A stretch of DNA of 41,648 nt from positions 18,078 to 59,725 of the IMG/VR virus record IMGVR_UViG_3300002223_000008; one strand, given 5' to 3'. Shown here piece after piece: positions 6,429 to 32,907 of the stretch. Each line of letters opens with the position of its first letter. The stretch's first letter is position 1. The stretch comes from a virus. Both the position numbers and the translations under genes were made by a program. Below the pieces are notes generated by a model. The model did not search any database, was not told the origin of the DNA, and saw only the letters and a list, made by a program, of their open reading frames with translations.

Positions 6429-7477
6429 ATTTCTCTCCCATTCCAATATGTAAAATTGTCAACATCGTTAATTGGAACTGACGCCGTCGTTCTCCATCCG
6501 GTCAACAACTCTGATAACTCATCCATTGACCACGGATTCAATGCTCGAGGGGACCCACCCGCTTGCATCTCTGCCTTCCGACGTTCCACGTACGCCAATC
6601 CATCGGGCCAACTCCAACGTCCCTCCAACCGAATTGGCTTTGACGATCCAAAAGGCAGCGCAGGATCAATCATATGCGGATCGAGATAGCACACCGATAC
6701 CTCAGGAGCCCACCATAATTCAACATGTGCCGCTAACAAACGATATTGTAAGTCAATATCCAGCGGACCCCGCCCCCGTTCCAACCGTTCATCTAACCCG
6801 TTGAGCTCCCACATCACATCACGACACACCGAATCATTCTTAATATGGAGCCACCCATCTCCAAGACCAGACCCACCCGTTCGCCTCAACTCTGTCATGC
6901 GAAGATCCTGATGGCGTACTGGCAATCCCATCAAATGCGGCAGCCACGCAGATTGAAATCTCCCAGCCTTCATTGGGTACATCTCATCCAAAATCTCCCC
7001 GCGTGCCACCGGGCTCTCTTCCGTACATTCGAATCCTGCTTCCCACTTTCGCACCACCGCCTCAAAATCATACGGCTGCTTGAGAACAAGTTCAGGAATC
7101 GGGACAAACCGGTAGCTCCCCGCCACGTACCGCCGCTGCCCGTCCAACGCCTTCAGGTGCCCCTCAATCCATCCTGGCGGGGTATACATCCAATCAGCCA
7201 AGAAGATCACCACACGCCCTCGAGCCAACGCAATTGCAGTATTCCAAGCTGACGCGAAAGACACCCATTTCCCATTCCGCCGATGTTCAGGAACATGAAG
7301 CAACGGCACATCATAACCCCACGCCATCTCCTGTACTTCTTTATGTCTCTTCTCGTACCGACGGTCAACCAAAATAACTTCAAAATCTTTGAACGTCTGA
7401 TCTCTCATCCCAGCCAAAAGAACATCAATTCCGCCCGGCCTGAACACAGTAGACAATACGGACACTTCAGGCGTCAT
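6407..7477 (-). CDS. Family 2 (GT-A) glycosyltransferase
   Basis: About 356 residues. The opening is SVLSTVFRPGGIDVLLAGM, FEVILVDRRYEKRH at the first nucleotide-sugar strand, then WNTAIALARGRVVIFLADWMYTP, where the usual DxD position reads ADW. A later GDGWLHIKNDSV and LDIDLQYRL fit the acceptor half. The start ATG at 7477 overlaps the HNH gene stop by ATGA; a 7-codon longer start is possible. It is clearly paralogous to the 338-aa transferase upstream (shared RPGG-DVLLAG). It should transfer a sugar from a nucleotide donor onto a glycan or protein. The donor is unknown. Confidence 0.7.
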   Translation of the reverse strand: MTPEVSVLSTVFRPGGIDVLLAGMRDQTFKDFEVILVDRRYEKRHKEVQEMAWGYDVPLLHVPEHRRNGKWVSFASAWNTAIALARGRVVIFLADWMYTPPGWIEGHLKALDGQRRYVAGSYRFVPIPELVLKQPYDFEAVVRKWEAGFECTEESPVARGEILDEMYPMKAGRFQSAWLPHLMGLPVRHQDLRMTELRRTGGSGLGDGWLHIKNDSVCRDVMWELNGLDERLERGRGPLDIDLQYRLLAAHVELWWAPEVSVCYLDPHMIDPALPFGSSKPIRLEGRWSWPDGLAYVERRKAEMQAGGSPRALNPWSMDELSELLTGWRTTASVPINDVDNFTYWNGREIWPDSEP

Positions 7478-7983
7478 ACAGACACCAAATACGACCAAGA
7501 TCGTCCCCTACGAACGTCACGAATAGCAGAATCAGACACTCCAAAACGACGACCTAACACTGGTGCAGACTCATTACTCATTCTTATTTCCAAAACACGC
7601 GCTTCTGTCAATTTAGTCCAACCCAACCGCTCACCTCTTCGCCACGAATGGTCAATTAACCCCAAAGCATTTGCATGTTTCATATTTTCGGAGCGAGTAA
7701 CATACTCCAAGTTAGAAACAAAATTGTTAGTTTTAACCCCATCTAAATGGTTAACCTCATACCCATCCGGCCTTGGTCCAATAAACGCTTCTGCAACAAC
7801 TCGATGAACAAGCATCAAATTTGTCACTCCTGGACGTCTAAGGCGAATACATAAGTACCCACCTGGGTGTTTCCACACTCTCATCATATGTACACGCCCT
7901 TTAATTCTGAACACATCCCCCAAATTAGATACCAAATATTGCTGCTCGTAACCAACAACAGGACGCCAATCAAGTTCAAGCAT
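7474..7983 (-). CDS. Free-standing HNH homing endonuclease (NUMOD4 + HNH)
   Basis: 169 residues. Residues 6-26 (WRPVVGYEQQYLVSNLGDVF) are a NUMOD4 DNA-binding motif. Residues 59-104 carry the HNH_3 core: LVHRVVAEAFIG, NHLDGVKTNN, NLEYVTRSENMKHA. A C-terminal helix-turn-helix-like stretch (VLGRRFGVSDSAIRDVRRG) would add specificity. Such enzymes cut a target in an allele that lacks them and spread by repair. It is wedged between the methyltransferase-like gene (8-base overlap) and a glycosyltransferase (ATGA), so it does not appear to break either frame. Confidence 0.85.
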   Translation of the reverse strand: MLELDWRPVVGYEQQYLVSNLGDVFRIKGRVHMMRVWKHPGGYLCIRLRRPGVTNLMLVHRVVAEAFIGPRPDGYEVNHLDGVKTNNFVSNLEYVTRSENMKHANALGLIDHSWRRGERLGWTKLTEARVLEIRMSNESAPVLGRRFGVSDSAIRDVRRGRSWSYLVSV

Positions 7984-8539
7984 GCCTAACCCCGGTCACA
8001 TGCATTTCCCATTTATTATACCAACCGCCATGCACAATATTAGAAAAACCAGCAAATTCTAACTCAGTTTTAAACGAATCAAAATTATACAACCATTTAT
8101 GATATCCAAATCCATTTTCATTATTAGGCCCATGAAACAAACATGAAAGCCACCCTTCAAACAATCCATCCTCTCGTAACCGTTCAAGAATAAAATCACC
8201 ATCCCCTATCATCACAATAATTTGCCCACCAGTATCAAGAATACGATAACATTCACGAAGAATTTTTCGAGCTGCATCCCGTGATAAATGCTGTAAAGAA
8301 TGAATTGCCTTTACACACTGTGCATGCCCATCATGAAACGGAAGATCTTCCTGTTCCAAATCGCACACAATATCCACATTTGGCCCAGCAGATATATCAA
8401 CATTCGGATGATAGACATCCTCTGCCGGACCCCCACCAATCTCCACCCACCGAGAGATCCCACACTGCTCGCACAGAGGTCCATACCCCCCTGATGGCGG
8501 AGGAGGCCCATGGGACTGCCACCGCGTAATATCCACCAT
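7976..8539 (-). CDS. SAM-dependent methyltransferase-like protein
   Basis: About 187 residues with a class I methyltransferase layout. SRWVEIGGGPAEDVYHPNVDIS is the SAM-binding loop; VDIVCDLEQEDLPFHDGHA is the second strand and acidic residue; VKAIHSLQHLSRDAARKILRECYRILDTGGQIIVMIGD is the post-I motif and strand 5. The GxGxG loop is present as IGGGPAE. ATG 8539 overlaps the radical-SAM stop by one base; longer starts would overlap deeply. In glycan clusters such enzymes O-methylate sugars or sit as partners of radical-SAM enzymes. The target is not visible. Confidence 0.65.
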   Translation of the reverse strand: MVDITRWQSHGPPPPSGGYGPLCEQCGISRWVEIGGGPAEDVYHPNVDISAGPNVDIVCDLEQEDLPFHDGHAQCVKAIHSLQHLSRDAARKILRECYRILDTGGQIIVMIGDGDFILERLREDGLFEGWLSCLFHGPNNENGFGYHKWLYNFDSFKTELEFAGFSNIVHGGWYNKWEMHVTGVRHA

Positions 8540-11370
8540 CAGACCACCTCGACAGGTTTCTGAAGCAACCGCTTCCTGGCGTACCACACGGCCTGCTTTG
8601 CAAACTCCTCCAGATTTCCGCCAAACTCATCAGCCGTTCTCACTAACACACGATCCCAAGCAAGCCGTAACAACACATCCACCAAATCCGGCCATTGAAG
8701 CCGAAGTAATAAATTCATCTCTTCGTAAAATCTGGAACTCTTCTGTGAAGCAATATTCAAATATGTAAATTCCTCAGTTGGCCAGATAATATTCCCATAC
8801 CGAAGATCAACCTCACCCCACTGGCCTCCGTCCAACCCGCGTTTCACAATCGCGATCGTTCGCCTATATTCCTCAGCCAATAATGTCGCGGGTCGTCGAG
8901 ATGCCACCTGCAAAAGCCACTCATAAAACTCCCGGTATGACACACCTTGAACATCATGCAAATACATCGCAACTTCCCGGAGTAACCCAAACCCATGAAA
9001 TGTCTGAACTGCCCACGAGAACATATACGCCTGCACCCAATCCGCTTCCGGCATCGTTGCGGTCTCAATACATAGGAGACAGGTTTCTTGAATTCCATCC
9101 TGATTCGGAGTCGAGTGCTGTTGCAACAGCGGAGACTGAATCACACGCATTCCATGCTTCTTCTGATACTCGAGATCGCCCATCTCTGCATTCGGAAGAA
9201 CTGCCAACAAATAAATATTCAGTCCCTCATGTTGCCCAGCCTTTAATAGCTGCTCAATCCCCCTGGTAAACGAGTCGTATGTCTCCCCTGGCAAACCAAG
9301 AATTAACTCCGTGTATGTAGGAATTCCCTCCTGACGATATGTCCCCAACAATGATTTGAAGTTCTCGATCTTAATATTACTCCGCTTGATCTCCTGTAAC
9401 GTATGTGCGTCAAGGCTCTGAAAACTCAATGTGGTCCCCTTACTCATTCCTGCCTGGTGGACCACACTAGAGATATCAAGAACTTTCTGATTACTGTTCT
9501 TTGCGTATGCCGCCCGAAATTGCCGTGGATAGCCATATTTTTCTTTCGCAGCAACCATTTCCTTTGTCAATTCAAGATCACGTGGAAGCAATCCAAAATT
9601 CGCATCACAATTATAAAGTAGTTCAATTTCGTGCTGACCCATCCACTCAAATTCACGAACAAGACGTTCATCATCAAACGCTCGTATCTTCGTAAGGACC
9701 GCAGAACCCCAATCACAATTGTGGCTTTCCAACCCGAAAACACTATAAATTGGAGTATCTTCTACTTCTAAATTAAAAACATACCCAGAAAAATCGGCAT
9801 CACTTACGGACGTCACATACGCCCACAAGTTTATTGGTAACTTTTCCGGAAACCGCCCAGCAAATTCTATCCGATAGGATTCATGCACATTAACATCTCG
9901 CCCGCAAATTCTAGGAACAAGCAATTTACGTTTAGAAACACCAGCACAAATACCAAGCAGACTCAGCAAAACCTGAAGTTGAGTAGCAAGAGTCAACGAC
10001 ACAGTCGAAGCAATACAGCGACCTTGAGAATTCTTCTTATCAATACTGAAACACCCATCTCCATCGAAATAGCCGCGAATAAACGCATGTATCAATTCCG
10101 ACGAAACACTAAACCACGCGTACGGAATCTTTTTCCTTAACGATCCAGAACCGAACAACTTAGAAAACAAACGAGCATACACCGAACTACAAACATAAAT
10201 TTGCATGCCTGTATCAGTTTCAGATACGATCGGTTCGACACCTAAGCACAACCTAACCAGTTGGCATGTTTCAGTAATTAAATCAGTCTCGTGTTTCCCA
10301 AACGTCCATCCTACAACACCAGAATTTGGCCGAGTTTTTGAAAAAGAAACATGTCCTTCCGCAACATACAACCCGCACAAACGCATAAACAAGTTATTCA
10401 TAATTACATAACGTGGCACTTTCACTTTGCCACGCTTGAATTTAACAAACATACCATCTACACACAACGCATCTAAATAGTTACATAGATCTAAAATCTC
10501 CACGCCCGCTCTCTGTGTATCCGGCACAGATACACGAATACGATCTCCTACAGTAATTTCACCAGCAGAAATCCATCCGCGCTGCGTCAACCATTCATGA
10601 TTAGGCGTACACTGTATCAAAGGACGCCCTACAACTTTCACTCGTTTAATCACCCCGGAGTACCGCCGCTCATACCTATGCAGAATCTGCTTCAATCCAG
10701 TATGCGTCCAAACTTGTTCGCCTACTTTATCCAAAACAACTTCAGAAATAGGCACAGACCCAGCGTCTGTCATAATAACTGCATCACCTGTCAAACAAAA
10801 ACTGCAAGAATAGACACATCCCCTATGCGTCTCTTGACTAGCATTATGATTATAGTCCGCTTCAAGCATCATGTCGAACACACCGGTCACATACGGAGAT
10901 GGCAAAATAGAAAGATCAGCAATTCGTGAACCAGATCGGTGAACCAAGGTTTCTGCCTTCAACCCACTACAACGAACCAGTAAAATCTCAGAAAACGCGA
11001 TTTCTCCCTCATGATGAACAACAACGTCCACATAATCCGGGATATCACGACGTAATGCCACTGACTTTGGAACATGCGGACCACCAAACACGATCAAACA
11101 GTCCGGATACGATTCACGAACTTTCTGTGCAAGAACCTTGTTAAACTCCCAGTTCCAAATATAACATGAAAACCCGACAACATCCGGATTTTCCATTCGT
11201 TCCACAATCGCATCAGAACGCTCTCGAAGATAAATCAACTCTTTGAAACAGTATTCTTTGTTTACCCAATCAAGTGACTGACAGTATGCTTGAATCAATC
11301 CGACGGAATACGGAAGAAACACGTTATCCCCGAACCGATTATTCACTTGAACCAAATACACGTTACGCAT
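8539..11370 (-). CDS. B12-binding/radical-SAM enzyme interrupted by an intein
   Basis: 943 residues as encoded, about 583 after intein removal. The N-terminal part (about 1-150: PDVVGFSCYIWNWEF, CLIVFGGPHVP) resembles the cobalamin-binding-type domain of B12 radical-SAM enzymes. RGCVYSCSF joins +1 Cys-DWGSAVL after splicing to give the CX3CX2C cluster motif. LSFQSLDAHTL, YTELILGLPGETYDSFTRGI and the long C-terminal helical part follow the family order. The intein (9718-10797) lies exactly before the third cluster Cys. ATG 11370 overlaps the upstream stop by 8 bases. It lies in the glycan cassette and may do a C-methylation or sugar rearrangement; the substrate is unknown. Confidence 0.8.
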   Translation of the reverse strand: MRNVYLVQVNNRFGDNVFLPYSVGLIQAYCQSLDWVNKEYCFKELIYLRERSDAIVERMENPDVVGFSCYIWNWEFNKVLAQKVRESYPDCLIVFGGPHVPKSVALRRDIPDYVDVVVHHEGEIAFSEILLVRCSGLKAETLVHRSGSRIADLSILPSPYVTGVFDMMLEADYNHNASQETHRGCVYSCSFCLTGDAVIMTDAGSVPISEVVLDKVGEQVWTHTGLKQILHRYERRYSGVIKRVKVVGRPLIQCTPNHEWLTQRGWISAGEITVGDRIRVSVPDTQRAGVEILDLCNYLDALCVDGMFVKFKRGKVKVPRYVIMNNLFMRLCGLYVAEGHVSFSKTRPNSGVVGWTFGKHETDLITETCQLVRLCLGVEPIVSETDTGMQIYVCSSVYARLFSKLFGSGSLRKKIPYAWFSVSSELIHAFIRGYFDGDGCFSIDKKNSQGRCIASTVSLTLATQLQVLLSLLGICAGVSKRKLLVPRICGRDVNVHESYRIEFAGRFPEKLPINLWAYVTSVSDADFSGYVFNLEVEDTPIYSVFGLESHNCDWGSAVLTKIRAFDDERLVREFEWMGQHEIELLYNCDANFGLLPRDLELTKEMVAAKEKYGYPRQFRAAYAKNSNQKVLDISSVVHQAGMSKGTTLSFQSLDAHTLQEIKRSNIKIENFKSLLGTYRQEGIPTYTELILGLPGETYDSFTRGIEQLLKAGQHEGLNIYLLAVLPNAEMGDLEYQKKHGMRVIQSPLLQQHSTPNQDGIQETCLLCIETATMPEADWVQAYMFSWAVQTFHGFGLLREVAMYLHDVQGVSYREFYEWLLQVASRRPATLLAEEYRRTIAIVKRGLDGGQWGEVDLRYGNIIWPTEEFTYLNIASQKSSRFYEEMNLLLRLQWPDLVDVLLRLAWDRVLVRTADEFGGNLEEFAKQAVWYARKRLLQKPVEVV
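9718..10797 (-). mobile_element. Intein with LAGLIDADG endonuclease domain in radical-SAM gene
   Basis: A 360-residue intein. It starts with Cys1 (CLTGDAVIM), has the TPNH block B (LIQCTPNHEWLT) and two LAGLIDADG-type motifs (LCGLYVAEG and FIRGYFDGDGC). It ends with block F/G (YVFNLEVEDTPIYSVFG...ESHN) and a Cys as the +1 residue. All residues needed for splicing (Cys1, block B Thr and His, penultimate His, last Asn, +1 Cys) are present, so it should splice. Boundaries were fixed by checking the codons TGT at 10797-10795 and AAT at 9720-9718. Confidence 0.9.
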
Positions 11371-12379
11371 ACCACGCCCACTCTGGTTTTTGCCCCACAA
11401 GATGCCCTGCATTGCCGCTCACAATCCTGGACGCATCATGCTCACACGCCAAAAACCTCGGGAGCGACGCTTCAGGTGTACTTCTCCACACTGAATGCGG
11501 GAAGTAATGCCGAGGATTCACAATCTCAACAGTTGCCACCGGATCAAGAAGCATCCATGCAGCTCCAGAACGACTCAGACGAAGACCCATATCCGAATCA
11601 TCATAACAATGACCGATCCACGACTCGTCAAACCCGTTCACTTCACGTCCCCGCTCAGCCCCCATCCCTTCATTTTTCGCATGAAACGCAGTCGGAGGAA
11701 CATCTCCACTCACAAGTCCATTCAATTTTGGATCAGCACGGAAAAAATACGGATCTTCATCCAAAGTCAGAACTTGCTCAGGATACTTAATCGGCGGATC
11801 AAAGATCGTGTACATCCATTTATCGTAAACCCCGTCCTGTATCGCGTCAGCAAACTCTTGTCCAGCCTGTGCTGAATATTGGTAGGTTGCTCCCTGCACT
11901 GGTTTCACCACACAGTCCACTGTGGCTGCTCCGTATACCCAATGTGCCCGAATTGGTGCATACGCTGGAAGATCATATGCCAGAGTCGGAGGATACCGGT
12001 ATCGGTGCGCTCCCATCCCGGCCTTCTTCTTCTCGGTGTACTCCCAGACCCCCCAGTGTTCCCGTAAGCATGCTTCTGGGAAAAACGAGTAATCCACCCC
12101 CCACACAATCAGTTCCCCGGATGCCTTCGCAATCGCCGTATTCCTAGCGGCCGGAACTGAATCCAATGGGAATATCCGATCCTTCGGGGGTGTATGAACC
12201 ACCCGAATACTCGCATCAAAAAAGGCATCCGCCACTTGTTCGGCCCGGCGATGGTACAATGCATCAACGAGTACCACCTCGAAATCATCAAAGATCTGAC
12301 GAGTCAACCCAGCTAAAAGAACATCAAGACCGCCTGGCCGCACAGTCACAATACACAAACTTAACCTGGGTGCCCCCAT
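11363..12379 (-). CDS. Family 2 (GT-A) glycosyltransferase
   Basis: 338 residues. LSLCIVTVRPGGLDVLLAGL opens the GT-A fold, FEVVLVDALYHRRAEQ is the donor strand, and RNTAIAKASGELIVWGVDYSFFP covers the usual DxD region (reads GVDY). ENGFDESWIGHCYDDSDMGLRL fits the acceptor-side catalytic region common in GT2 enzymes (D-E-x-x...D-x-D). It shares the RPGG-DVLLAG opening with the 356-aa enzyme downstream, so one gene arose by duplication. TAATG joins it to the 71-aa gene upstream. Donor and acceptor are unknown. Confidence 0.75.
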   Translation of the reverse strand: MGAPRLSLCIVTVRPGGLDVLLAGLTRQIFDDFEVVLVDALYHRRAEQVADAFFDASIRVVHTPPKDRIFPLDSVPAARNTAIAKASGELIVWGVDYSFFPEACLREHWGVWEYTEKKKAGMGAHRYRYPPTLAYDLPAYAPIRAHWVYGAATVDCVVKPVQGATYQYSAQAGQEFADAIQDGVYDKWMYTIFDPPIKYPEQVLTLDEDPYFFRADPKLNGLVSGDVPPTAFHAKNEGMGAERGREVNGFDESWIGHCYDDSDMGLRLSRSGAAWMLLDPVATVEIVNPRHYFPHSVWRSTPEASLPRFLACEHDASRIVSGNAGHLVGQKPEWAWYA

Positions 12380-17839: not shown

Positions 17840-18133
17840 CTATGCCGTTGTACGCTCCCACCGCACTGCAACTTCCTGAAGAACAGTTTGTTTGACAAGG
17901 CAATGTCCAAGCAGATCCAACCAGAGACACTCAGAATCCCATAAACGGCGAGTCAGAAAATCATAGGCATCATCTCGAATCAGTTGCAGTTCTTGTTGCG
18001 TTTGTATGTCCGTAACCTCGTGAACCTCTAAGTCACTCAACGCCTGCCGAACCACACGAACAGCAATCAATACGGGAAAATCAAATCCTTGAAGATCATC
18101 TCCACCCCAGACCGCTCTCATCGAAGTGCTCAT
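17840..18133 (-). CDS. Small hypothetical protein at the head of the glycan cassette
   Basis: 97 residues (from ATG 18133), helical (VVRQALSDLEVHEVTDIQTQQE, then RDDAYDFLTRRLW), with no recognised domain. It lies just downstream of a promoter-like site carrying a 12-bp palindrome, and 16 bases before the large glycosyltransferase. A TTG at 18151 or an ATG at 18121 are alternative starts. A regulatory or accessory role is possible but only by position. Confidence 0.5.
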   Translation of the reverse strand: MSTSMRAVWGGDDLQGFDFPVLIAVRVVRQALSDLEVHEVTDIQTQQELQLIRDDAYDFLTRRLWDSECLWLDLLGHCLVKQTVLQEVAVRWERTTA

Positions 18134-20232: not shown

Positions 20233-20865
20233 TTACAGTACGCCACTAGAGGTGGTTCCCATGGCCGGGTGGGGATTCATTTCTCGCTCTCGGTCGGCCC
20301 CTACCACACCCTCTAGCGGAGACCCAACTGAGCCAAGGACAACCCGAGAGGGCTCAGACAGAGTCGGTTCCACTACGTCGCCATGGCCAATTCCACGACG
20401 ATTCAACTTTTTTACACCCATCAAAATAGATAAAATTTCTTTATCTGTAACCATCGGTACTGTAGTTTTATACCCAGCCCCCAAAGAAATTGCACGACGT
20501 CGTGCAATCAACCGAATAAGCAAATCTGCGTGAGCGCGTTTCGTTACAAGATATGGCTGGACCGAGCTAATAAATCGCTCAATTTGCTCCTTGCCCTTAA
20601 CTTCTAGCCACCACGCTGGCTTACATCTTGGATTTGGCTGCTGATAATATTGCACAAAATACTTTACCCCGATCGTATCCAAAATTGAACTAGTCTCTAA
20701 GATCATCGCCTCGTCGGTATTAGACAAAATAAATCTAATCACCAAGCTTGAGTACGCAGATCCCCCTCGACGCGTACGCACACTCTGGCTTAAACGGGCT
20801 TGAAAAGAACCTTCCCCGTCAACTATCCCAGCAAGCCAGCCGAGACGACAATCCAGAGACTTCAT
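20233..20865 (-). CDS. Free-standing LAGLIDADG homing endonuclease
   Basis: 210 residues. Only one clear LAGLIDADG motif is seen (LGWLAGIVDGEGSFQARL, residues 8-25), so it probably works as a dimer. FILSNTDEAMILETSSILDTIG and CKPAWWLEVKGKEQIERFI match the core of this family. The basic C-terminal half may bind DNA. It sits exactly between the major capsid and decoration genes, a common landing place for intergenic homing enzymes. No intron ends are evident, so it appears to stand alone. Confidence 0.85.
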   Translation of the reverse strand: MKSLDCRLGWLAGIVDGEGSFQARLSQSVRTRRGGSAYSSLVIRFILSNTDEAMILETSSILDTIGVKYFVQYYQQPNPRCKPAWWLEVKGKEQIERFISSVQPYLVTKRAHADLLIRLIARRRAISLGAGYKTTVPMVTDKEILSILMGVKKLNRRGIGHGDVVEPTLSEPSRVVLGSVGSPLEGVVGADREREMNPHPAMGTTSSGVL

Positions 20866-26547: not shown

Positions 26548-29421
26548 TCATTCCCAAGGTTCATCTTCTCGCCCACCAACCATCCTACGGAATGTTCTAT
26601 CACATTCCCAAGGTTCAGGCTCCCGCTTCTCTGCCCCACCAGATACGGTATCGCGTGACACTAACTTCTGAAGCCCATAATATTTCTCAAAACATTCATC
26701 ATCTGATGTCAAAAGAGCAATCATCCACGCAATCGCTCGATCATCATGATGTCCAGCAACAGCCCCCCATTCGTTCGGACCCTTCTGCACGAACATTTCC
26801 AATTCACGCAGGAGTGATTCACTGGCGATGTGGACCCGGCCATTCACCATCTCATGAGATGCAAACCCAACGAGCCACGGCTTCGATTTAGAATTCGTCT
26901 CCCAGCCCGTTTTTCGAGAATAGCGAGGCACCACCTCATCCCTATACCTCCAGACGTAATTATTTGAATAGCCCATCTTACTTAGTTGTTGATTTGTCCC
27001 ACCGCCAATCCCATTTGTTTCAACTGCAATCTGTGCAGTGTTATAATATTTCCCTAACCAGTACAACACGTTTGCGAGTTCAAACGGATCAACAGCCCGT
27101 GATGTCCACTCAGCCACCTGCTTATTCGATCCCCGCTGCAACACGCACGCGACCGACGAATCCAAATCCTCTTCCATCGAATCATCTCGACCTTGGCCCA
27201 TCGCCACATCTATGCCAATGTCATATGCCTTCCCCTGTTCTGGCTCATCCCAGATCCACAGTTTACCTTGTGGCGCATCAAGAATCCGTGGACCCGAATG
27301 CACCTCAGCCATTCGCATCGGGGGACGCACTCCATGCCGAAGCTCCCGCAACGATTTCGCAGGAAATACCTGTGCCCCAGGGGTCACCCACGCATCTTCA
27401 ACCGTATTATGCGTAAGAATTCCATTGGTATCATGAAGATGGTCAGGAGCAACACGAAAATCGTACACATCCACACACCCGGCCGATGTAACAGACTTTA
27501 CTCGATCGCTTAACACATGACGTAAACGAACCTTTCCAGAAGGATATGCACGACGCCCATTTTGTTTACGTGCCGAAACAAATCCGATCTTCTCGTGAAA
27601 TAAAGTTGCTTCAGACGCCGATAAATAAAGCATCGTTTTATACCCAAGAGACCCATCAATATACGGACGGCTCTGTCTTTCTCGTCGCAACCGCCCCTTA
27701 ATTCCAAACGCAAGCAATAATAATTGAATATCACGACAGAACTGCTCCCCCTTTGAACAAAAAACAACTTTCGCCTGACGATTTCCAGCGTAACCGTCAC
27801 TTTCAAACAAAGCGGATAAAAATCTGCGAACACAGGGCTGCGGACTCCGAAAGATAGCCTCCGGAACACGAACCACTCGATGCCACAAACCCTTCCCAGA
27901 ATACTGTTCGGCGATTTCAAATTGAGATAACAGGTGTATCCAATCGCGTGTAAACGATCGTACGCCAATAGCCCCCTGCAACCGATGTCGTCGTGTAATT
28001 GATGGTCGAGTACCCCGCGACGTTAAATAACCAGATGCAACAATACCAACCACACGTTCTATATCTTCAACCACATCCATATCTCGACTATCAGAAGCAA
28101 TCTCGACACAGTGCCCATCAAAACTTCCATCTCCCAGATAATACCCAAGAAATGCAGATAATTCTTCTGTTACCAACACGCTACTCTGTACACCAGGAGA
28201 AGAAATCCAACGATGAACAAACATAGATTCAGACAAGCGAGGGGGTTCTAACGTAAGAACCATATCTTCCAACAGATCTTTTGCTTCAATAAACGCATCA
28301 CCAACAACAAATGGATGATTGGGAGTACATTGAACACGATACCCATCTTTAGTTTCCACAAGAACAGTCTCATGTACCCCTTGTGGCAACCACTCCTTTA
28401 CTACACGAGACCCAGAAAGTTCTGAAACTCCTTGTGCTTGATCAATCCGAATCAAGCCAAGATTCGTTCCGACTCGAGTATCTCCGGACACACACAAAGG
28501 AAAACTTTGCCGAAACAGATCCCAATCGTTCCCCATTTCACCGAGCTTTTCCCGCATCCATTTGATATGTCCAGGATTCAACCCGAATTCCGCTACGATA
28601 TGGCGCTCATTCGCTGAAAACTCGATGGACTCACCCACGTTCAATGGCATACAATATTCAGGCTGAAGGAACCATGGGACAAAGGTAAATTCAAACGCGG
28701 TATCTCCACGCATGGATGCTTCACAAAAATCTCGATACCACGTCCCTGCCATTTCAGCAGAAGACTCCATGATAATAATCGTCCCAGGAACCCGATGGAC
28801 TGCCGGGATGACCCCGTCAAGCACAAACGCCGGATCAGGGAACCGGGCACATTCTGACAAATGAGCAACCTGCCAATTCGCACCTATAGCTATGTTTTTC
28901 TTGTGGGCAGACTCCACCACAATTCTCGATCGTAACCCTGGATCATGTTTACGCGTTGCCTGGGAGGGATTGGCAAACACCAGTTCCCGTTTGGTAATAT
29001 ACCGACCCACTGGGCGAATATCATCATCCAGATGGTCATAAAATGTCCGTGAAATCTCGAAGAGCGTCCGTGCCCGTTCAGCTTGATCAGCCAGCACCAA
29101 CGCGTTCACATGAGGCCAAAGCATTGTCCGCCATGCAACCAACGATTCGGCCAACGTGCTGGCCCCAACCTGGCGAGCTTTCAACCAAACACATCGCGCA
29201 AACCCTCGAGCTTCAAATTGGCGCTCAATAGATTCAAGAAGTGGGATTTGGCACGGCCAGAAGTTAAACGGGTTATCCCCAATTCTTAACTGCTCCGATG
29301 CGAACGCCCGGAAATCCCGACGGTACCGGACAATCTTCTGTGCCGATTGCTGTGCTTCGCCAAGCACGACCCCCGTATCAACCGTCCGAGTCAAGGTAAC
29401 CGGTATCTCCGCTTCCGACAT
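26548..29421 (-). CDS. Terminase large subunit interrupted by an intein
   Basis: About 957 residues encoded, about 594 after splicing. The ATPase has a Walker A variant (KARQVGAST, residue 81 on), Walker B (GTIIIMESSAE), and a coupling region FRQSFP. The nuclease domain follows the intein: YDIGIDVAMGQGRDDS, IAVETNGIG and HHDDRAIAWM give the acidic residues of the RNase H-like fold. It packages DNA by ATP hydrolysis and cuts it. Start ATG 29421 (TTG 29433 is possible). It overlaps the zinc-finger gene upstream by 31 bases. Confidence 0.9.
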   Translation of the reverse strand: MSEAEIPVTLTRTVDTGVVLGEAQQSAQKIVRYRRDFRAFASEQLRIGDNPFNFWPCQIPLLESIERQFEARGFARCVWLKARQVGASTLAESLVAWRTMLWPHVNALVLADQAERARTLFEISRTFYDHLDDDIRPVGRYITKRELVFANPSQATRKHDPGLRSRIVVESAHKKNIAIGANWQVAHLSECARFPDPAFVLDGVIPAVHRVPGTIIIMESSAEMAGTWYRDFCEASMRGDTAFEFTFVPWFLQPEYCMPLNVGESIEFSANERHIVAEFGLNPGHIKWMREKLGEMGNDWDLFRQSFPLCVSGDTRVGTNLGLIRIDQAQGVSELSGSRVVKEWLPQGVHETVLVETKDGYRVQCTPNHPFVVGDAFIEAKDLLEDMVLTLEPPRLSESMFVHRWISSPGVQSSVLVTEELSAFLGYYLGDGSFDGHCVEIASDSRDMDVVEDIERVVGIVASGYLTSRGTRPSITRRHRLQGAIGVRSFTRDWIHLLSQFEIAEQYSGKGLWHRVVRVPEAIFRSPQPCVRRFLSALFESDGYAGNRQAKVVFCSKGEQFCRDIQLLLLAFGIKGRLRRERQSRPYIDGSLGYKTMLYLSASEATLFHEKIGFVSARKQNGRRAYPSGKVRLRHVLSDRVKSVTSAGCVDVYDFRVAPDHLHDTNGILTHNTVEDAWVTPGAQVFPAKSLRELRHGVRPPMRMAEVHSGPRILDAPQGKLWIWDEPEQGKAYDIGIDVAMGQGRDDSMEEDLDSSVACVLQRGSNKQVAEWTSRAVDPFELANVLYWLGKYYNTAQIAVETNGIGGGTNQQLSKMGYSNNYVWRYRDEVVPRYSRKTGWETNSKSKPWLVGFASHEMVNGRVHIASESLLRELEMFVQKGPNEWGAVAGHHDDRAIAWMIALLTSDDECFEKYYGLQKLVSRDTVSGGAEKREPEPWECDRTFRRMVGGREDEPWE
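27406..28494 (-). mobile_element. Intein with LAGLIDADG domain in the large terminase gene
   Basis: 363 residues. Cys1 (CVSGDTRVG), block B (YRVQCTPNHPFVV), LAGLIDADG-type motifs (FLGYYLGDGSF, FLSALFESDGYAG) and the end VYDFRVAPDHLHDTNGILTHN with +1 Thr. The splice sites were fixed from the TGT at 28494-28492 and AAT at 27408-27406. It lies in the conserved FRQSFPL/TVEDAWV region between ATPase and nuclease domains. All nucleophiles are present, so splicing is expected. Confidence 0.9.
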
Positions 29422-29603
29422 TGCCCAGAACAAAACCTTGTATATTGCCCTGTCGCATTCGCTGCAATATCATGTCCGCATACCTCACACACACGCCCGG
29501 ACCCAGCGAATTTATACCCGCGCGGCACGTCCCTCCCAGGCACACGTTCAACCCGTTCACGTCCCGTCAAACCCAACTGCTGTCGTCTCCGCGCTTCACC
29601 CAT
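29391..29603 (-). CDS. Small zinc-ribbon protein upstream of terminase
   Basis: 70 residues: a basic Arg-rich start (MGEARRRQQLGLTGRERVER) and a CEVCGHDI...FCSGQC zinc ribbon (CX2C ... CX3C) in the second half. It overlaps the terminase start by 31 bases and the upstream gene by 8, which is unusual but seen in tightly packed phage operons. A DNA-binding or packaging-accessory role is possible; no relative is recognised. Confidence 0.5.
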   Translation of the reverse strand: MGEARRRQQLGLTGRERVERVPGRDVPRGYKFAGSGRVCEVCGHDIAANATGQYTRFCSGQCRKRRYRLP

Positions 29604-31029: not shown

Positions 31030-32907
31030 CTACAGTTCGACGGTCACATCAGGTTCCCATGTTGCCGATCCCCTCCCGTCTTTCCTTGGTCCGTATCTCC
31101 GATATTTCACAACCGGAACAATTTTAATCAATGGAGCCCCAAGACTCGCTGGGCTCAAGAGCCGTTGTTCCACATAATTTCCCATGGGAATCTGCCCCTG
31201 CTTCGCCCCCTCGACATATGATTTTGAAAACCCGCCACATCCGACCATGTACACCTTCCGATGAACCAGATCAGGAGAACCGAACCCGTGCCACCGTGGC
31301 ATAATCCGATTCACCGGAGCTGCCGCCTGTTTCGTCATATGTCCAAGAAGAAACACATCAGCATCCCAGTAGGGGAGAAGATTTTCAATCTTATTCAACG
31401 GTGCCGACATTTTCATCCCGCCTCCGCACCCGTGATGGACAAAAAGAACAATAGAAAATCGAGATCCGTTACTGCGAAATACGAGACGAATATATGCACA
31501 GGTCCCTAAAAACTTCGCATCGAGCATCTGACATAATCGCATGTCGGTCGTATCACCCGTACGCAATTGCGCCCAATGATGCCCATGGCATAACCCAAGC
31601 CAACGACCCTTCGTTGGTTTCAAATAATCCTCATATAATTCATGCACAAGTTCAAGTGCCGCGTCATCCACCACATCTTCGGCCGAATTTCCAGTAAATG
31701 ATGTTTGCCCTTCATAACAGCCCATCCACGTACCTGTGTCAGTCACCGGACACCACACAGTCTCATGAGCCACAATCCTCTCAACAGATCGAGCCCACGC
31801 CTGCCCATGCACCCAACGCAATGCGCTTGATCGTGTTCCAGTTCTCGTTATTCCATCAACGTCAATAGACCGGTGCCTAGTGGGCACTCCCAGAAGAGCA
31901 CAAAGAGCATAAAACAAATCAAGACGAAGTGGGTCCTTCTGAGTAAACTGCCACCCCCCATGATCTGATCCTCGACCTTTAGAAAATTCCCGATGCCCCT
32001 CCGCGTGCAACATCGCATCCAGCATCGCCCGACGAGCCTCAACAGACAAACACATCGAAATTCGTGGGATATCACCCTCAACAGATGCCCCAGCTCGTGC
32101 GAATAACCCACGAATTTCAGGAGCAGAAAATCCCCATCGAATCCACGTTCCCTTACCAGCCCCATATCCTGTCTGTTCATTCTCTGTTTCTGCAACTTTG
32201 AGCCAAGGCAACCGAGCAAGCAACCGACGAATATCCTCCACGTATTTTCTTTTCGTTTGAGATAAGTACGTAGTCCAGCACTCTGGAAATTTCACATGAC
32301 CATCTGTTAATATCCACCCCAGCAACGCTGCTTCATCAGGAGATAGATCAGCATCTCCACTCTCATCGCACACCCCCGCAGTAACAATTCTATGTATTCC
32401 TTGACGAAGAGCGTATGTGGGCATCATACTCTGGTGTCCATCAATATGCTGAACAACCCAGCGATGATTATCTGTAACTCGCCACGACCACCCTCTTGCT
32501 TTTACATTGACAACAGGAGCATGCTCCCACGTCACAACTTTACGAAGAGGGGTCCACACAGCCTTCCGCGTTACCAAATCGTACCCCAGAATATCTTCAC
32601 CTATGAGAAGTTGTGAATAAAATTTCCACCCAAACTTAGTCAAAATTCTTGTATCAACAGATACACAATCGTACAATGCCGCCGCTTTGAATCGCTGTCT
32701 ATTGCTCGGAGACATAAAATCTGTGTAATCCCCAAGACCAACAAACCACGCACCCAACTTCATACACTTGTCAATATGACGTTTAAGAATATCCCCAGCA
32801 GTTGATCCACGCTTTCCTGACCACTGAATATCCCCGATAGGCGCAATCACGATCGGCTGATGATTTCGCCTTGAGGACCACGTAATATTATGAGTGGCCA
32901 GTTCCAC
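31030..32907 (-). CDS. Metallophosphoesterase interrupted by an intein
   Basis: 625 residues encoded, about 298 after splicing. IAPIGDIQW (residues 22-30), FVGLGDYTDF, GLCHGHHW, VHHGCGGG and LLGHMTK supply the Asp/His ligands expected for a calcineurin-like dinuclear phosphoesterase. It would hydrolyse phosphodiesters, for example in DNA or RNA processing. The start is a GTG at 32907 directly after the neighbouring TAA. The intein lies between ALYD and SAEDVVDD, between the second and third metal motifs. Confidence 0.7.
   Translation of the reverse strand: MELATHNITWSSRRNHQPIVIAPIGDIQWSGKRGSTAGDILKRHIDKCMKLGAWFVGLGDYTDFMSPSNRQRFKAAALYDCVSVDTRILTKFGWKFYSQLLIGEDILGYDLVTRKAVWTPLRKVVTWEHAPVVNVKARGWSWRVTDNHRWVVQHIDGHQSMMPTYALRQGIHRIVTAGVCDESGDADLSPDEAALLGWILTDGHVKFPECWTTYLSQTKRKYVEDIRRLLARLPWLKVAETENEQTGYGAGKGTWIRWGFSAPEIRGLFARAGASVEGDIPRISMCLSVEARRAMLDAMLHAEGHREFSKGRGSDHGGWQFTQKDPLRLDLFYALCALLGVPTRHRSIDVDGITRTGTRSSALRWVHGQAWARSVERIVAHETVWCPVTDTGTWMGCYEGQTSFTGNSAEDVVDDAALELVHELYEDYLKPTKGRWLGLCHGHHWAQLRTGDTTDMRLCQMLDAKFLGTCAYIRLVFRSNGSRFSIVLFVHHGCGGGMKMSAPLNKIENLLPYWDADVFLLGHMTKQAAAPVNRIMPRWHGFGSPDLVHRKVYMVGCGGFSKSYVEGAKQGQIPMGNYVEQRLLSPASLGAPLIKIVPVVKYRRYGPRKDGRGSATWEPDVTVEL
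31687..32667 (-). mobile_element. Intein with LAGLIDADG domain in the phosphoesterase gene
   Basis: 327 residues from Cys1 (CVSVDTRILT) to the end in CPVTDTGTWMGCYEGQTSFTGN, with +1 Ser. LAGLIDADG-type motifs are LLGWILTDGHVKF and MLDAMLHAEGH. Block B is WRVTDNHRWVV. The penultimate residue is Gly, not His; this variant is known in other inteins (ending ITGN or FTGN before Ser). Boundaries were checked at the TGT (32667-32665) and the AAT (31689-31687). Confidence 0.85.

Follow-up and report, generated by a model that had tools for sequence, protein, structure and literature searches.

We found that a phage gene for a cobalamin-dependent radical-SAM methyltransferase-like enzyme is interrupted by a full-length intein, which begins exactly in front of the third cysteine (Cys III) of the host's CX3CX2C cluster motif. 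On all the evidence, this is very probably a mobile class 1 LAGLIDADG intein in a TokK-like enzyme, which splices by the standard route, took the site for its conserved motif and the cysteine it needs there, and responds to redox state, if at all, as a side effect. Positions refer to the window, the whole stretch of DNA analyzed (41,648 nucleotides; positions 18,078 to 59,725 of IMG/VR record IMGVR_UViG_3300002223_000008).

Results

Insertion point and predicted spliced product

In translation, the minus-strand open reading frame at 8539-11412 encodes 957 amino acids. Its true start codon is likely Met15 at 11370, a position that coincides with the end coordinate of the initial annotation. The intein comprises residues 206-565 (Table 1). 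Its N-side junction reads HRGC199-VYS-C203-SF205/C206-LTGDAVIMTD and its C-side junction GLESHN565/C566-DWGSAVLTK (slashes mark junctions), the insertion falling exactly between Phe205 and Cys III. Removal of the intein leaves 597 amino acids counted from the start of the reading frame, or 583 from Met15. The spliced join RGCVYSCSFCDWG aligns without gaps with the intein-free homologues L002 (RGCPYMCSFCAWG) and L013 (RGCPYFCSFCMWG), and its motif agrees with that of TokK of known structure (ETNRGCPYSCSFCDWG). Since the homologues are uninterrupted at the insertion point, splicing would restore a canonical CX3CX2C.

Translation, junctions, intein-free homologues and the TokK match thus confirm what the initial annotation had read from the letters, an intein in a radical-SAM host gene. 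The gap-free alignment likewise upholds its placing of the insertion before Cys III, with two N-extein cysteines and Cys+1 forming the spliced motif. It had further noted that Cys1, which follows GCVYSCSF, holds the third motif position in the precursor, and C199, C203 and C206 do stand in this order. The arrangement is well beyond chance. An assembly or frame artefact was rejected on the open frame, the precise join and a second contig (L001, 94 kb) that carries an identical 12.9 kb, the last of which makes a faulty assembly unlikely.

Table 1. Features of the intein-interrupted gene (window positions)
Feature	Position	Strand	Evidence
Cobalamin-dependent radical-SAM methyltransferase-like gene (TokK/CysS type), intein-interrupted	8539..11370	-	PF02310; NF033712 below cut-off; TokK profile and fold matches
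N-extein: B12-binding domain and Cys199, Cys203 (-7, -3 relative to Cys1)	10798..11370	-	
Full-length class 1 intein, 360 aa, Cys1...His-Asn, LAGLIDADG endonuclease domain	9718..10797	-	PF14528, PF14890, motifs, AlphaFold model
Cys1 codon TGT: splicing nucleophile, third Cys of precursor CX3CX2C	10795..10797	-	
Cys+1 codon TGT: third cluster Cys of spliced enzyme	9715..9717	-	invariant in 30 homologues
C-extein: Cys III, DWG motif, rest of radical-SAM barrel, C-terminal domain	8539..9717	-	

Splicing and endonuclease domains of the intein

Block A (CLTGDAVI) opens with a Cys1 that is invariant in the intein alignment (A4), and its Ala6 departs from a near-invariant Thr. Block B (CTPNHEW) contains the TxxH motif as TPNH, with His67 invariant in the alignment, and the C-terminus (ESHN/C) provides His-Asn followed by Cys+1. 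Block F (FNLEVEDTPIY) has Asn for the usual Asp, a residue common among the aligned inteins, and Pro for the usual His. Given these block F and Ala6 departures, splicing could be slow. The LAGLIDADG domain PF14528 scores above its cut-off (4.6e-12; 46.5 bits against 22.5), and PF14890 matches below its own (2e-6). The AlphaFold model of the intein alone has a pLDDT of 87.7 and matches the TliVMA intein (7qsu, E=1.7e-21), with 2cw7 and I-DmoI as further fold matches; in the model of the full-length precursor, the intein part has a pLDDT mostly below 50, and the geometry of Cys199, Cys203 and Cys1 is not readable from it.

The nearest relative of the intein, at about 25% identity over the full length, lies in an RmlD-like gene of the viral contig IMGVR_UViG_3300035050_000132. 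Its insertion point, before the cysteine in TTD/CVFNG of this sugar-nucleotide reductase, lies outside any cluster motif. With its closest kin in such a gene, the phage intein probably came to the cluster site by a route separate from that of most other inteins in radical-SAM genes.

Several other homing elements occur in the window, all on the minus strand. A second intein (27406-28494) lies in the open reading frame of the large terminase subunit (26548-29433) and runs from Cys1 (CVSGDT) to THN, with Thr+1. A third (31687-32667; CVSVDTRIL...SFTGN/SAEDV) has Ser+1 and lacks the penultimate His; its host (ORF 31030-32907) matches a phage DNA repair exonuclease family weakly. Free-standing homing endonuclease genes are present at 7474-7983 and 20233-20865 (types NUMOD4 plus HNH; LAGLIDADG/HNH-like). 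With these further endonuclease genes, homing elements are abundant in this phage.

The host enzyme and its intein-free relatives

A family profile scan places a B12-binding domain (PF02310) in the exteins. A profile of 30 viral homologues searched against the PDB matched TokK (7kdx, E=9e-178) and CysS (9n1b, E=5e-106), and Foldseek matched the precursor model to 7kdx (E=4e-43). The KedN5 family NF033712 was hit at 2e-73, with 247.6 bits against a curated cut-off of 700, which leaves the protein outside that family. The B12-binding domain and the post-splicing CX3CX2C occur together in the host, as in TokK/CysS-type enzymes, and on these profile and fold matches it is classed as a cobalamin-dependent radical-SAM methyltransferase of that type. 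The gene sits among glycosyltransferase, epimerase, UDP-sugar dehydrogenase and methyltransferase genes, and for this reason the enzyme likely helps to build or methylate a glycan or sugar nucleotide encoded by the phage. In the contig of homologue L013, a UDP-glucose dehydrogenase-like gene adjoining the homologous radical-SAM enzyme carries a mini-intein of its own (L013:8887-10647; CLAKGT...LVSN/CHPRD).

The only invariant cysteines among the 30 homologues are those of the cluster motif (C240, C244 and C247, L190 numbering), which makes this motif a natural place for an element that needs both Cys+1 and a conserved target. Across 80 viral loci with the host enzyme, the motif is uninterrupted in all but this phage. 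A relative with 50% identity contains an unrelated 393-aa intein elsewhere in the gene, at another conserved site (L202:5129-6307; GLSVYT/C...VHN/CELLPNSEM). Judged from these loci, the distribution is the sporadic pattern of homing elements, with sporadic gain. A search for the same insertion point in other phages, which the initial annotation had proposed, therefore came up empty among the relatives in these 80 loci and was rewarded in many other phage radical-SAM families, as described below.

Recurrence of inteins on the radical-SAM cluster motif

Viral contigs were scanned, and genome contigs once, for the junction patterns CX3CX[FY]/C-phi-x-G-D or x-G-T. The resulting counts are lower bounds, as the patterns require Cys1, an aromatic residue at -1 and GD or GT in block A. 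Matches set aside as chance or non-intein comprised the MoaA sequence CMPGD, out-of-frame matches, L013, L064 and, in the site II scan, phage zinc-finger proteins.

Inteins before Cys III (site III) occur in many radical-SAM hosts of phages, bacteria and archaea, forming at least 14 single-linkage host clusters, at least about nine of them with complete inteins, the present protein included. Family scans named Rv2578c, AmmeMemoRadiSam, QueE, CXXX-repeat peptide maturases and B12 radical-SAM enzymes among the hosts, to which a MoaA/SPASM-like group and an archaeal DUF5131 protein are added. The uniqueness of the arrangement is thereby rejected. NCBI models already exist for intein-containing Rv2578c and Tes radical-SAM proteins; a description of the superfamily-wide recurrence was not found in the open-access papers searched. 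One actinobacterial family, sampled in 151 genomes, yields 124 Rv2578c matches above cut-off; judged by span, 59 of them have a full intein, 19 a mini-intein and 46 none.

Exclusive use of Cys III is rejected as well. Inteins end before Cys I in the L154 group, L156, L158 and L166, and before Cys II in L169 and L174. The L154 group has two inteins in one motif, one before Cys I and one starting at Cys III (VHN/CPFACIY/CFPSDT; L154:2825-3829, and the same in L155, L159 and L164). Sites I and III are both used in SPL/PA0069-like hosts, and sites II and III in the CxxxCxFCAYR group and in SPASM peptide maturases. Of the three sites, III seems to be occupied most often, in scans that differ in sensitivity.

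These inteins do not form one lineage specialized for radical-SAM sites. A topology test on a quick tree with long end branches rejected a single clade of all site III inteins (p-AU 4e-14), and related inteins occupy different motif cysteines (L169 at II; L349 and L357 at III). The close relationship between the inteins of L169 (L169:1700-2785, before Cys II) and L357 (before Cys III), which share a host family, suggests that the insertion site has moved from one motif cysteine to another. On a reading of the alignment, the inserted domain of the site III inteins in L337 and L342 looks HNH-like, not LAGLIDADG, and different endonuclease types thus appear to reach the same cluster motif.

Discussion

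We propose that splicing most likely follows the standard route, in which Cys1 would attack the Phe-Cys1 bond, Cys+1 would take over the N-extein, and the terminal Asn would cyclise. Excision would join the third cluster ligand to the first two; until then the enzyme could not hold its cluster. Most probably the element took this site, and stayed there, because no other stretch of the gene that offers the cysteine required at +1 is as conserved as the cluster motif; with the cluster cysteines as the only invariant ones, the insertion position can be understood as the targeting of a conserved nucleophile. The endonuclease is expected to target this stretch, and an imprecise loss of the element would leave the enzyme inactive. 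The insertion also has a by-product: Cys-3 and Cys1 make up a CxxC-like pair, which under oxidation could close into a reversible disulphide and delay the splicing reaction. What counts against this explanation is the departures in blocks A and F, which could make splicing slow, and the apparently higher use of site III, which would not be accounted for by the conservation of three equal cysteines alone.

The initial annotation had suggested that, with Cys1 in the place of a cluster ligand, a bound Fe-S cluster or oxidised sulphur could hold or release splicing. A special or adaptive role of this coincidence found no support. Any Cys1 intein placed before Cys III shows CX3CX2C in its precursor; the duplication of the motif is automatic, and the competition of two cysteines for one place is therefore no sign of regulation by itself. 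The overlap recurs in many radical-SAM families and in unrelated intein lineages. Inteins also use Cys I and Cys II, where the precursor has no upstream cluster cysteine (I) or one (II).

Redox control nevertheless has a precedent, which the initial annotation had named correctly. In the MoaA intein of Pyrococcus abyssi, according to two reviews (PMC10663303, PMC3922620), a disulphide between Cys-3 and Cys1 blocks the first splicing step under oxidation, as Callahan et al. (2011) are reported to have demonstrated by experiment. The phage protein possesses the cysteines at -3 and 1 (C203, C206) that characterize such a trap in sequence, at the spacing reported for MoaA, and by analogy an oxidative brake on its splicing is plausible. 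It is a further step, and an unlikely one in our view, to suppose that this disulphide is an adaptive switch that holds the precursor, that only a reducing cell lets the oxygen-sensitive enzyme mature, and that the intein is kept for this purpose, as proposed for P. abyssi MoaA. Site III is the only site that places a cysteine at -3 and was the most frequent in scans of differing sensitivity, an apparent excess that would fit selection for a redox trap. However, the -3 cysteine is dictated by the host motif, and its presence is thus no sign of selection. The intein is absent from all other relatives of the host enzyme found, 46 of the 124 actinobacterial Rv2578c genes do without one, and Cys I and Cys II sites occur even within the same host families.

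A more general form of this idea seems, as a whole, improbable to us. Under it, inteins throughout the superfamily would converge on the cluster motif as a hot spot, and those at site III would be kept because the motif's own -3 Cys and Cys1 act together as a built-in sulphur checkpoint, either by forming a disulphide or by binding iron or a cluster for a time. The oxygen-labile enzyme could then mature only in a cell able to make clusters.

There is little chance that the enzyme is a relic whose intein splices very slowly or no longer at all. Ala6 in block A and the Asn and Pro of block F would fit such decay, and there is no second allele of the intein to show purifying selection. Against decay, the frame is open over 957 codons, Cys1, TxxH, His-Asn, Cys+1 and the LAGLIDADG motifs are intact, and the extein residues around the cluster motif and the B12 domain are conserved. 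We give hardly any credence to gating by a [4Fe-4S] or partial cluster built in the precursor on Cys199, Cys203 and Cys1, blocking splicing until released or read out by iron or redox state: the complete CX3CX2C that suggests it is the automatic outcome noted above, inteins persist at sites I and II, whose precursors lack such a motif, a well-predicted HINT domain begins with Cys1 and would have to share its active site with a cubane and SAM, and the open-access papers searched contain no report of cluster-controlled splicing.

Taken singly, this is an intein of an ordinary and already known kind, and what is new is the phage enzyme that hosts it. The wider pattern matters more, in which unrelated inteins have settled repeatedly on the same three radical-SAM cysteines in phages, bacteria and archaea. 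The -3 cysteine needed for a redox trap is found only with Cys III inteins, and the natural triplicates at Cys I, II and III, sometimes in the same enzyme family, allow a test of the old question whether inteins serve as regulators of their hosts or are parasites only.

Comparison with known systems

The phage enzyme has its domain order, its RGCPYxCSFCDWG motif and its fold in common with TokK and CysS (7kdx, 9n1b) and the KedN5 family (NF033712). Unlike the phage enzyme, the solved TokK and CysS proteins have no intein; the phage enzyme lies in a glycan gene cluster and scores below the KedN5 cut-off. The inteins TliVMA (7qsu) and PkoII (2cw7) likewise combine a HINT splicing domain with a nested LAGLIDADG endonuclease, but they reside in other host proteins and are about 15-20% identical to the phage intein. 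The P. abyssi MoaA intein also interrupts a radical-SAM enzyme, presumably before the third cluster cysteine, and has a cysteine at -3 together with Cys1. It belongs to an archaeon and another host enzyme, and the idea published for it is a disulphide and not a bound cluster; the phage case shares the spacing alone. A counterpart in position is the intein-containing Rv2578c family NF038136, in which many genomes have the identical insertion place (NPYRGCxHxC.Y/C...VSHN/C[FY]AR). At 17.8 bits against a cut-off of 700 the phage protein falls outside this family, and host family and intein lineage both differ between the two.
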